DNA of 64,000 nt. Origin: Pseudomonadota bacterium. Its GTDB lineage: Bacteria; Pseudomonadota; Gammaproteobacteria; Steroidobacterales; Steroidobacteraceae. Under the pieces are notes generated by a model. It was not told the DNA's origin and did no database searches. It saw nothing but the letters and a program-made list of their open reading frames with translations. Positions 24,359-29,117 of the stretch are shown here, piece after piece. Numbering within the stretch: the first letter of the stretch is position 1; each line of letters starts with the position of its first letter. The translations under genes were made by a program, and so were the position numbers. Where the stretch lies: assembly GCA_018241505.1 (NCBI GenBank), contig JAFEDS010000002.1, forward strand, positions 1-64,000, written 5' to 3'.

Positions 24359-25422
24359 GCTCGCCGATTTTGTTGGTCGATCGCGACGGCACCTTGATTG
24401 AGGAACCGCCCGATCGCCAGGTTGACTCACTGAGAAAGGTCCGCTTCATGCCGGGTGTATTCGCGGCCCTCGCGGAATTGAAGCGGCGCGGCTTCCGGCT
24501 GGCGATGATTACCAATCAGGATGGTCTGGGCACGCCGTCGTTTCCTCGGGCGGCCTTCGAGGAATCTCACCATTTCGTTCTGGCCGCCTTCGCGTCGCAG
24601 GGAATCCACTTCGACCCTGTTTTCATCTGCCCGCATTTTCCGGCGGATGGATGCGATTGCCGTAAGCCCAAAACAGGGCTGGTACGCGAATTTCTGCGCG
24701 ACGCCGACCTCGACCTCGTCAACAGCGCGGTGATTGGCGATCGCGACACAGACCTGGAGCTCGCGCGTAACCTCGGCGTACGGGGATTGCGGGTGCTGCG
24801 AAACGGAAGCGACACGGAAACTTGGCCGGGAATCGTCGCTGCACTGACTTCGCGTAGTGCCGAAGTCGATCGCCGCACCAAGGAGACTCAGATCAATGTC
24901 CGCGTAGGACTGGATGCAACCTCCCCCATTCAGGTGGCTACGGGAATTGGATTTTTTGATCACATGCTGGAGCAATTGGCCAAGCATGGTGGCTTTGCGC
25001 TCGAATTGAACTGCCAAGGCGACCTGCGGATCGACGAACATCACACAGTTGAGGACTGCGCGCTCGCACTCGGCGATGCGTTACGTCGAGCGCTCGGTAA
25101 CAAGGTCGGTATCGCTCGCTACGGATTTCTGTTGCCCATGGATGAGGCAGAAGCGAAGGTCGCCATTGATCTATCAGGGCGTGCCTACGCTGTATTCGAA
25201 GGCCGATTTGGGCGCGAGCAGGTCGGTGGACTGCCCACTGAGCTGGTGCCCCACTTTTTTCATTCTTTAGCGGAGACGCTGGGCGCCGCCGTGCACGTGA
25301 GTGTCACAGGCGAGAACACCCATCACATGATAGAGGCGTCCTTTAAAGGCGTCGGACGAGCGTTGCGTCAGGCGTTTCGACGCGAAAGCAATGAGCTTCC
25401 AACGACGAAAGGTGTGTTGTAG
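24355..25422 (+). CDS. hisB: Bifunctional histidinol-phosphatase/imidazoleglycerol-phosphate dehydratase
   Basis: The 355-residue fusion has an N-terminal HAD phosphatase (about 1-165) with the DxDGT motif in LLVDRDGTLIEEP (Asp9, Asp11) and a Cys/His cluster FICPHFPADGCDCRKPKTGL typical of HisB-N. The C-terminal IGP dehydratase (about 168-355) shows both metal motifs, DEHHTVEDCALALGDAL and ENTHHMIEASFKG. The fused form is typical of gammaproteobacteria. The TAG stop shares one base with the GTG start of hisH. Confidence 0.97.
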   Translation: MSSPILLVDRDGTLIEEPPDRQVDSLRKVRFMPGVFAALAELKRRGFRLAMITNQDGLGTPSFPRAAFEESHHFVLAAFASQGIHFDPVFICPHFPADGCDCRKPKTGLVREFLRDADLDLVNSAVIGDRDTDLELARNLGVRGLRVLRNGSDTETWPGIVAALTSRSAEVDRRTKETQINVRVGLDATSPIQVATGIGFFDHMLEQLAKHGGFALELNCQGDLRIDEHHTVEDCALALGDALRRALGNKVGIARYGFLLPMDEAEAKVAIDLSGRAYAVFEGRFGREQVGGLPTELVPHFFHSLAETLGAAVHVSVTGENTHHMIEASFKGVGRALRQAFRRESNELPTTKGVL

Positions 25423-26015
25423 TGGACGCCGTCATCATCGACAGTGGCGGCGCGAATCTCGCCTCTTTGCAGTTCGCATTTGAACGCCTCGGGGCCAAGA
25501 CTGAGGTGTCGGCTGACGCCGCTGCAATCCGTTCCGCTCCGCGGGTTATATTGCCGGGCGTCGGATCTGCGGGCGACGCCATGGCACGTCTACGCAGTAA
25601 TGACGTTGCGCGTTTGTTGCCTACGTTGACGCAACCTGTACTGGGAATCTGTCTTGGTATGCAGCTCCTATTTCAGAACTCGGAGGAAGGCAACACCGAG
25701 TGCCTGGGAATCCTTCCTACGTCCGTGCGACGTCTCGAACCGAAGGGCGGCCAGCCTGTGCCACACATGGGTTGGAATCAACTTGCTTTGGTGCGTGAGG
25801 ATCCCCTGCTCGAGGGAATTGTACCAAATGACTACGTGTATTTCGTACACAGCTTCGCGGCGCCGGTGTCGGACGTGACTTTGGCCAGCGCGGACTACGG
25901 TGTGGCCCTGTCGGCCATCGTCCGTCGTGGGAATTTTTGGGGAACTCAGTTTCACCCGGAGCGATCCGCCCAGGTAGGTGCCCGAGTGCTTGCCAACTTC
26001 CTGAGACTGGCCTGA
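25422..26015 (+). CDS. hisH: Imidazole glycerol phosphate synthase, glutaminase subunit
   Basis: A 197-residue class I glutamine amidotransferase. The nucleophile is Cys77 in PVLGICLGMQLLF, with His178 and Glu180 in GTQFHPERSAQVG completing the triad. It makes ammonia for HisF. The start is GTG 25422, overlapping hisB's stop by one base; the opening MDAVIIDSGGANLASLQFAF is the conserved N-terminus. HisA lies between hisH and hisF, the standard order. Confidence 0.96.
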   Translation: MDAVIIDSGGANLASLQFAFERLGAKTEVSADAAAIRSAPRVILPGVGSAGDAMARLRSNDVARLLPTLTQPVLGICLGMQLLFQNSEEGNTECLGILPTSVRRLEPKGGQPVPHMGWNQLALVREDPLLEGIVPNDYVYFVHSFAAPVSDVTLASADYGVALSAIVRRGNFWGTQFHPERSAQVGARVLANFLRLA

Positions 26016-26027
26016 GGCCTTCCGACC

Positions 26028-26804
26028 ATGTTGCTGATTCCTGCAATCGATCTCCGCAAGGGCCGCATCGTCAGGCTATTCCAAGGCAACTTCGATGCCG
26101 AGACGCGGTATGAGTACCAGCCTCATGAGCTGCTGTTGCGGTATCGGGGGCTAGGTGCGACTTGGCTGCACGTGGTCGATCTGGATGGCGCTAAGGATGG
26201 TGCACTCTCTAACCGGTCGATCATCGTCGCCCTTGCTTCGCAAACGGACGTGCGACTTCAAGTCGGTGGCGGCATAAGGAGCTCCGCCACTATCGATGAC
26301 TTATTTAACCAAGGCGTCAGTCGCGTGGTCATCGGAAGTACAGCCGTCGAGCGTCCTGACGAAGTCAACGAATGGCTCGTTCGCTATGGCCCGGAGCGAG
26401 TGTGTCTCGCATTCGACGTCAAGCTCGACGATGGCAGTGTGCCTCGTGTACGCACGCGAGGTTGGACGGAAGGTACTGCGCTGAGTTTGTGGGACGCCAT
26501 CGCGCGCTTTCCTGCCGATCGCCTCAAACACGTTCTATGTACCGATATCGCACGCGACGGGGCCCTGACGGGACCCAATGTCGATTTGTACCGCGAGGGC
26601 GCGACGCGATTCCCTTACCTGCAGTGGCAAGCGTCAGGGGGTGTACGCAACGCGTCCGATTTGGCGGCACTAGCTGAGACTGGCGTTGCAGGCGCCGTGA
26701 GCGGCAAAGCCTTACTCGAAGAGAGAATCACTTCTCAGGAGCTGCGACCATTCTTGCAAGACGCATCATCCCCTGTCTCGATGTCCGCGACGGCCAGGTC
26801 GTAA
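26028..26804 (+). CDS. hisA: ProFAR isomerase (1-(5-phosphoribosyl)-5-[(phosphoribosylamino)methylideneamino]imidazole-4-carboxamide isomerase)
   Basis: The 258-residue TIM barrel shows the paired HisA catalytic acids: Asp8 in [17 protein letters not shown] and Asp130 in [11 protein letters not shown]. The phosphate-binding loops VGGGIRS and [13 protein letters not shown] are in place. It opens the ProFAR ring (Amadori rearrangement). Its last 55 nt, encoding [14 protein letters not shown] at the end, overlap the start of hisF in another frame, a longer overlap than elsewhere in the operon. Confidence 0.96.
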
Positions 26805-27601
26805 AAGGCGTCCGCTTCCGCGACCTCAAGGTCGTGGGCGACATCATGGAGTTGGCGGCGCGCTACCGCGATGAGGGCGCGGACGAACTCGTGTTCTACG
26901 ACATCACTGCCAGCCCACAGGGCCGATCGGTGGATCGTGAGTGGGTGAATCGCGTCGCGCAGGTGCTCGACATTCCATTTTGTATCGCGGGAGGAATCCG
27001 CTCCGTCCAGGACGCGGAGGAAATCCTGAATGCGGGTGCTGAGAAAGTTTCGGTCAATTCACCGGCGTTGGCGAACCCGCCTCTCATTGACGCGCTCAGC
27101 GCTCGATTCGGCGCGCAATGTGTCGTGGTTGGAATCGACAGTCAATTCACCACGGCCGGCTACCGTGCGTACCAGAACAGCGGGGACGCCAAGCGTGCTC
27201 AAGAATCAGGGCGCGACGTTCTTGAGTGGGTGCGAGAGGTTCAGGACCGGGGGGCCGGTGAGATTGTGCTCAACTGCATGGGGAGTGATGGCGTCCGTAA
27301 GGGCTATGACATCGAGCAGTTGCGGAAGGTGCGGGATATTTGTCGAGTGCCGCTAGTAGCGTCGGGGGGTGCGGGCACTGTTGAGCATTTTCGCGATGTG
27401 TTCGCGCACGCACACGTCGACGCTGCGCTGGCCGCGAGCGTGTTTCACAGTGGGGCGATTGTTATTTCGGAGTTGAAGCGCAAGTTGCGGGGAGCGGGGA
27501 TTGAGGTGCGGCCGGCGGGTGCGGGGCACGCGGTTGGCGCCACGGTTGGTCCAGGCGCGGGGTCATCGGCCGCGGTGCCGACCAACGGAGCGGGCTCATG
27601 A
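26750..27601 (+). CDS. hisF: Imidazole glycerol phosphate synthase, cyclase subunit, with an ATT start codon
   Basis: The conserved HisF N-terminus [19 protein letters not shown] is encoded directly after ATT 26750, and the frame from the preceding stop (26677) to that point has no ATG, GTG, TTG or CTG. AGGAG (26737-26741) stands 8 nt before the ATT. With this start the catalytic residues fall on the canonical numbers, Asp11 (CLDV) and Asp130 (VVVGID). The first ordinary start, GTG 26834, would delete 28 residues including Asp11. The product (283 residues) is about 25-30 longer than usual, with a Gly/Ala/Pro-rich tail after EVRPAGAG. HisF cyclises PRFAR with ammonia from HisH. Confidence 0.9.
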
Positions 27602-28248
27602 ACGCCGGCACTCCGCTTCGCCTCGCGGATATCGACAGCCTCGACTTCACCAAGTCCGACGGCGGTCTGTTGCCCGCGGTGGTTCAGCACGCCGATACCG
27701 GGGCGGTGCTGATGGTCGGTTATATGAACCGTCAGGCCTTACGCGAAACAATGTCTCGCCAGCACGTTGTCTTCTTCAGCCGGAGCAAGCAGCGCTTGTG
27801 GGAGAAAGGCGAAACTTCAGGTCACTTTCTCGAGCTCGACCAGATTCGCACCGACTGCGATCGGGACGCGCTGTTGGTTACGGCGCGGCCACTTGGGCCC
27901 GTCTGTCACGAAGGGACCGCAACCTGCTTCGGCGATGAGTGCATCACGAAAGGCGAGCGGCTGGCATTTCTCTCGATGCTCGAAGGCGTCATCGAGAAAC
28001 GTATCGTGCAGAGCCCGCAAGGCAGCTACACCGCCCGCCTGTTCGCTGAAGGCCCTAAGCGAATTGCGCAGAAGGTCGGTGAAGAAGGCCTCGAGGTGGC
28101 GCTGGCCGCTGTTGCGGAGACTAATGACAAAGTGGTGTCGGAATCGGCGGACCTCATTTTCCACTTGCTCGTGCTTTTGCGCAGCCGAGGGCTGTCATTT
28201 GAGAGCGTGATCGCCGAGCTACAATCGCGGCATGCCACTAAGCCGTAA
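27598..28248 (+). CDS. hisI: Bifunctional phosphoribosyl-AMP cyclohydrolase/phosphoribosyl-ATP pyrophosphatase
   Basis: The 216-residue HisIE fusion has the PRA-CH domain (about 1-118) with metal/zinc Cys residues in [11 protein letters not shown] and [15 protein letters not shown], and the PRA-PH domain (about 120-216) with [20 protein letters not shown] and [13 protein letters not shown]. It catalyses steps two and three of histidine synthesis. It starts in an ATGA overlap with hisF and closes the operon; the next 240 nt are noncoding. Confidence 0.96.
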
Positions 28249-28485: not shown

Positions 28486-29117
28486 ATGAAAAAGGTCGCA
28501 ATCCTTATTGATGGGGAGTTTTTCTCCATTGCACTTCGCCACGAACTGCGCCAGCAGCACAGACCGACGGCCGCGAAGACTTATCAGCATGCCCGTGGGT
28601 AGCAGATCCCACAACCGAGGAAATATGGCGGATCTTCTATTACGATTCACACTCCTCCACTGCTCGCGCTTGGCATCCGGTCACGCGAGAGCTAATCAAC
28701 CTCGCCAATAGCGGCTCCGCGAGAGCTCGCACTCAATTCTTGAATGAGTTGGGCCAGATGAACCTGGTTGCGCTTCGCTGCGGACAGACTCGCTCCCGAG
28801 GGTGGCATTTGTCTGAAGCGTATTTGCGTCAGTTGACGCACGGTGAATTGCGGCGTCCGAAAGCGGAGGACTATGAGTTACGCTTCGAACAAAAAGGTGT
28901 TGATATGCGCATCGGCATCGATGTCGCAACACTGGCGCTCAATCGCCACGTGGACCGAATCATCGTCGCAACCAACGACACCGACCTCATCCCAGCCCTC
29001 AAGCTCGCGAGACGCTCTGGTATCCAGGTGGTCATCGCCCAAATCGGATCCTTTAACCTCCACCGCGACCTCGTGGAGGACGCAGACTTCAGGCGCCACT
29101 ATCCTGTCGCCGCCTAG
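28486..29117 (+). pseudogene. NYN domain (LabA/DUF88-like) protein gene with a frameshift
   Basis: ATG 28486 opens a frame MKKVAILIDGEFFSIALRH that matches the start of NYN/PIN-like putative RNases, but it ends at TAG 28600-28602 after QHARG. The rest of the protein continues one base back, from GTA 28599 (VADPTTEEIWRIFYYDS...) to the stop at 29117, with the conserved NDTDLIPALKLARRSGIQVV segment. Joined, the two parts give about 210 residues, the normal length, with acidic residues of the active site (IDGEF, GIDVAT, TNDTD) kept. No classical slippery heptamer is present at the junction, so a single-base indel or a sequencing error is the simplest explanation. Confidence 0.8.

Follow-up and report, generated by a model that had tools for sequence, protein, structure and literature searches.

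The hisF gene in much of a bacterial order appears to start at a conserved AUU or AUA codon that is shared with the end of hisA

In the his operon of the window, by which we mean the whole 64,000-nucleotide stretch of DNA that was analysed, hisF appears to start with ATT at position 26750, within the 3' end of the preceding gene, hisA. We consider the complete account, in which an AUU start codon is dual-coded with HisA and is aided by a Shine-Dalgarno sequence and by translation of hisA, to be about 90% likely; that ATT 26750 is itself the true start we doubt very little, judging from the sequence comparisons. Among the relatives examined, AUU or AUA is almost certainly a real, selected start codon of hisF in nine of the 15 family groups of this order in which hisF was read. 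The family of the genome is probably Steroidobacteraceae, according to the names in a species-level genome collection. The operon in the window comprises hisD, an aminotransferase gene that we took as hisC, hisB, hisH, hisA, hisF and hisIE. The features to which we refer are as follows.

25422..26015, plus strand: hisH, upstream neighbour (profile search)
26028..26804, plus strand: hisA, overlapping hisF (open reading frame and profile search)
26675..26677, plus strand: TGA, last in-frame stop codon 5' of hisF
26737..26741, plus strand: Shine-Dalgarno sequence AGGAG, within hisA codons, 8 nt 5' of ATT
26748..26753, plus strand: HisA codons CCA TTC (Pro-Phe), which contain ATT out of frame
26750..26752, plus strand: putative hisF start codon ATT (frame reading, and ATT or ATA in 110 of 143 distinct loci)
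26750..26804, plus strand: hisA/hisF overlap of 55 nt, with hisF in the -1 frame relative to hisA
26750..27601, plus strand: hisF, 283 residues and a stop codon (27599-27601), TIGR00735 score of 334.2 bits
26780..26782, plus strand: codon for Asp11
26834..26836, plus strand: GTG, first conventional in-frame start codon, residue 29, start at which loses Asp11
27598..28248, plus strand: hisIE, downstream neighbour, overlapping the hisF stop codon (open reading frame and profile search)

A first-pass annotation of this DNA had proposed ATT 26750 as the hisF start, on the grounds that no ATG, GTG, TTG or CTG lies between the in-frame stop and GTG 26834, and that the conserved HisF N-terminus begins directly at ATT, 8 nt downstream of AGGAG. 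Our reading of the frame bore out both observations: from TGA 26675-26677 to GTG 26834 none of the four conventional codons is present, although near-cognate ATC codons occur at residues 6 and 7. The same annotation had argued that counting from ATT gives the numbering Asp11 and Asp130, and that a start at GTG 26834 would remove the former. Both points held, since aspartate is found at residues 11 and 130, aligned with known HisF chains in an alignment of PDB sequences; we take these two to be the catalytic residues of HisF. When the two versions of the protein were scored against TIGR00735, which has a cut-off of 294.55 bits, only the one started at ATT reached it, with 334.2 bits over profile positions 2-254 of 254; the version started at GTG 26834 scored 283.2 bits over positions 29-254 and fell under the cut-off. 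At its other end, the predicted protein extends about 29 residues past the end of the HisF profile (27512-27598, plus strand), in a tail rich in Ala, Gly and Pro.

We then compared hisF 5' ends from two sources: a search of whole genomes, that of the window and those of its relatives, which gave a match in 76 of 99 genomes, the window's own included, and the best 80 of 532 loci from the species-level collection. The DNA of 46 of the genome matches was retrieved separately. L002 (G000:C4:78249-78998), a second HisF-like paralog with 41% identity and an ATG start, was left out, and loci identical over the 600 nt after codon 1 were merged, which reduced 157 loci to 143. Codon 1 was ATT in 98 of these distinct loci, ATA in 12, ATG in 25, GTG in five and another codon in three, proportions that describe relatives of this HisF, by similarity to which the loci were picked, and not bacteria at large. 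In none of the 143 was it ATC. The three loci with another codon (L144, L151 and L157), where hisA does not overlap, are included in the total. The first-pass annotation had also raised the question of whether ATT is conserved in related hisF genes; with ATT or ATA in 110 of the 143 loci, which is more than chance would give, the answer is yes, and the proposed start is strongly supported by the comparison with relatives. By family group, most of which consist of one to three genomes, ATT or ATA occurred in f1, f3, f4, f5, f6, f7, f11, f13 and f15, ATG or GTG in f2, f8, f12 and f16, and another codon in f9 and f14; the whole-genome search gave no hisF match in f10. The Rhodanobacteraceae rows had ATG or, once, GTG.

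To look beyond the order, we read 30 matches with DNA, the window included, from a class-wide search at a loosened E-value, which had given a match in 111 of 140 genomes. L161, from the same family, had ATT; L162-L165, which are E. coli-like with 54-66% identity, had ATG. The other 24 loci (L166-L189, 43-49% identity) encode HisF of a more remote type, in many cases longer by one N-terminal residue, and in none of them did ATT or ATA occupy the aligned position. Thus, in this small class-wide sample, no ATT or ATA start of hisF was found outside the order.

The choice of codon 1 follows the end of HisA. The second and third bases of the hisF start double as bases one and two of a HisA codon: where this codon is Phe (TTY) the start is ATT (98 loci), where it is Tyr (TAY) the start is ATA (12 loci), and in the 24 loci with TGN (Cys or Trp) in the overlap the start is ATG (19) or GTG (five). 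An ATC start would require Ser at this position of HisA. In E. coli K-12, HisA ends in Ala-Cys-Trp-Gln-Asn-Ala and its Cys codon, TGC, gives hisF an ATG; swapping TGC for TTC would give ATT. This dual coding of the hisF ATT with the hisA 3' end was absent from the first-pass annotation. By eye, an aromatic residue of HisA (Phe, Tyr or Trp) is retained in nine loci whose hisF ATG lies away from this codon (L042, L046, L048, L051, L053, L069, L099, L130 and L133), which suggests that HisA wants the aromatic residue for its own sake. Evidence to the contrary is that in 14 Rhodanobacteraceae-type rows HisA ends in Cys before the aromatic position, and that L155 likewise has no aromatic residue; the HisA end could not be read by script in L144 and L151. 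Dual coding with the end of hisA best explains, from the sequences, why ATT or ATA would be used rather than ATG. The hisF start may be held at AUU or AUA by an aromatic residue close to the HisA C-terminus, and the HisA codon is probably the main reason for these starts.

The first base of the start lies outside the Phe or Tyr codon and carries the mark of selection. It falls on the wobble position of the HisA codon before, and it is A in all 110 loci with TTY or TAY as the overlapping codon, compared with about 11 expected from the synonymous usage of the same hisA and hisF genes. Ten different amino acids occupy the preceding HisA position in these loci, each encoded by a codon ending in A, and at least 28 changes among them were counted on a quick LG+G4 tree with many weak branches and two flagged long-branch joins, on which such counts are minima. 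Similarly, the HisA codons that contain the Shine-Dalgarno sequence had G at the wobble base in 108 and 106 of the 110 loci, with 72 and 74 expected; because related loci are not independent, we give the wobble counts without a P value. AGGAG or GGAG was present at 8 nt in 96 of the 110 ATT/ATA loci. There is a background excess of A near starts, which at one codon further upstream amounts to 36 of 110 loci with 16 expected, but this general excess does not account for A in 110 of 110. The start region was also less paired than nearby control windows, with a mean unpaired probability of 0.48 vs 0.38, and exceeded them in 89 of 109 loci.

These features suggest how a weak codon could serve as a start. 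The usual initiator tRNA would decode AUU as fMet despite a mismatch at the third base, aided by a well-spaced AGGAG 8 nt upstream and in a region less paired than its surroundings. Ribosomes finishing hisA would cross the site, and translation of hisA may thereby help initiation at the weak codon. The start is assembled from two HisA codons, the A from the wobble base of one and the second and third bases from the next; Cys at the latter in E. coli yields ATG, and Phe or Tyr in much of the order yields ATT or ATA. In 60 of the 110 loci the hisA stop codon begins 16 nt after the first base of codon 1; the distance is 28 nt in 25 loci and 52 nt in 17, the window being among the last. Classical stop-start reinitiation requires short overlaps, according to passages of PMC10666635; the 52 nt of the window would be too long for it, and with that distance in 17 of 110 loci it is unlikely to be the general answer. 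The variable position of this stop (26766-26804, plus strand, and related loci) indicates that the HisA C-terminus has been lengthened inside the part of the overlap read in the hisF frame. A deletion through a short repeat was considered and dropped on finding that E. coli has the same overlap.

Could hisF instead start at a conventional codon elsewhere, either far upstream within hisA or downstream? ATG, GTG, TTG or CTG does lie upstream in the open frame of many relatives: of the 107 ATT/ATA loci in which an upstream stop can be seen, 78 have some conventional start codon within the open frame. CTG or TTG occurs at residue 2, 6 or 10 in 28 of 110 loci, and the others are at least 15 codons upstream. 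However, the remaining 29 of the 107, the window included, have no conventional codon between the stop and Asp11, which excludes such a start for them, and in L061 and L137 a single codon separates the in-frame stop from ATT. These 29 loci agree with the two sets of wobble counts in pointing to selection on the codon as a start. Downstream codons such as GTG 26834 lose Asp11 and leave the protein under the HisF cut-off. We therefore regard a conventional start as very improbable. Two marks of a near-cognate-start gene were found here, a full protein without a conventional start (in those 29 loci) and conservation beyond synonymous expectation. That HisF is made solely as part of a HisA-HisF fusion, through a -1 frameshift within the overlap, would fit the fact that hisF overlaps hisA in its -1 frame, but it is scarcely credible: among 110 loci, canonical slippery heptamers occurred in 15 across the examined stretch and in two in the overlap core, so that the conserved canonical heptamer by which a programmed -1 frameshift is recognised was not found, and frameshifting leaves the kept A and the Shine-Dalgarno sequence unexplained. 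An error of sequencing or assembly might be suspected in a genome of 46 contigs with 5.67% estimated contamination, yet ATT is present in 97 other distinct loci, including that of a named strain, Steroidobacter gossypii S1-65 (L056), and one in a genome assembled as a single contig (G087, L120). With ATT thus in 98 distinct loci, we ruled out sequencing error, the chance of which is practically nil.

A more serious alternative is that the near-cognate start has been kept for regulation, with HisF tuned by IF3 or by ribosome supply as infC is, and with the tie to HisA a by-product. The first-pass annotation had likewise suggested that a rare start codon could reduce the yield of HisF or make it respond to initiation-factor levels. 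The long conservation of the codon, though ATG is one base away, is consistent with this, as is the use of ATC or ATA by infC in the same clade. Taken as a positive control, infC of the same genome (L159, G000:C22:115239-115742, minus strand) has a candidate ATC start one codon after the thrS stop and no conventional start before the conserved region; 28 infC loci were taken and 22 read, and 18 of the 22 have only ATC or ATA before that region. The clade thus appears to use near-cognate starts in the expected places, and hisF would extend the list. In S. aureus, reporters with AUU or AUA reached about 10% of AUG and ccpN up to 30%, one of them depending on the medium, as given in passages of PMC13009471. 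Against regulation, the start tracks the HisA codon in overlapping loci and is ATG or GTG again where HisA has Cys or Trp. Furthermore, HisF acts in a complex with HisH, and a low level of HisF alone is hard to justify. We therefore prefer dual coding with HisA as the explanation of the codon, and consider it doubtful both that regulation is the reason for it and that the start additionally regulates HisF via IF3 or coupling. Only tentatively, then, might the hisF AUU/AUA be an anciently conserved point of control, through which histidine synthesis would depend on the supply of initiation factors or ribosomes and on translation of hisA; if it were, one amino-acid change in HisA would reset the translation of the next enzyme, HisF.

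Comparison with known systems places hisF among genes with a selected near-cognate start and a good Shine-Dalgarno sequence, as in infC, which starts with AUU in E. coli and with AUA in S. aureus. The product of infC is the very factor that selects against the infC start, and the gene is thereby autoregulated, according to passages of PMC9410913; in contrast, hisF encodes a biosynthetic enzyme and shares its start codon with the coding sequence of hisA. The pcnB gene of E. coli resembles hisF as an ordinary chromosomal gene with an AUU start (parts of PMC9410913 and PMC1780047), but its AUU is described there as limiting expression, and dual coding does not feature in that description. Likewise, S. 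aureus cvfC1 (AUU) and ccpN (AUA) have conserved starts with Shine-Dalgarno sequences; in the sections of PMC13009471 concerned they rely on extended Shine-Dalgarno motifs, whereas hisF has AGGAG or GGAG inside a gene overlap. The closest arrangement is that of hisA-hisF in E. coli K-12, with the same gene order, a 19-nt overlap, a Shine-Dalgarno sequence within hisA codons and the hisA TAA inside hisF codons 6-7, a stop distance shared by 60 of the 110 ATT/ATA loci. It differs in that its hisF starts with ATG, because HisA has a Cys codon (TGC) at this place.

AUU and AUA are known as start codons of few bacterial genes. In E. coli only infC and pcnB have an AUU start, according to PMC9410913, and AUU has been proposed as the lepA start in two species. 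Among the matches listed in searches of literature titles and abstract openings, with thin coverage of subscription journals and arXiv, none dealt with a near-cognate hisF start. The kind of start codon is already known; what seems new is its presence on a biosynthetic enzyme, where it would be fixed by dual coding with a neighbouring gene. Reportedly, a preprint on bacterial genes that prefer non-AUG starts might already list hisF. In our comparison, much of an order appears to keep AUU or AUA on such an enzyme, as a codon bound up with the sequence of the adjacent protein, and the occurrence of ATT, ATA, ATG and GTG at one site offers a natural series for separating start strength, gene overlap and protein constraint. 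Gene callers limited to ATG, GTG and TTG would therefore misplace the HisF start in these genomes, and in the window the first codon open to them loses Asp11.

Further downstream in the window, an NYN-domain gene (28486-29117, plus strand) is split across two frames, with the N-terminal half in one and the C-terminal half, which matches PF01936 positions 71-136 of 145, in the other; it may represent a frameshift, a broken gene or an error.
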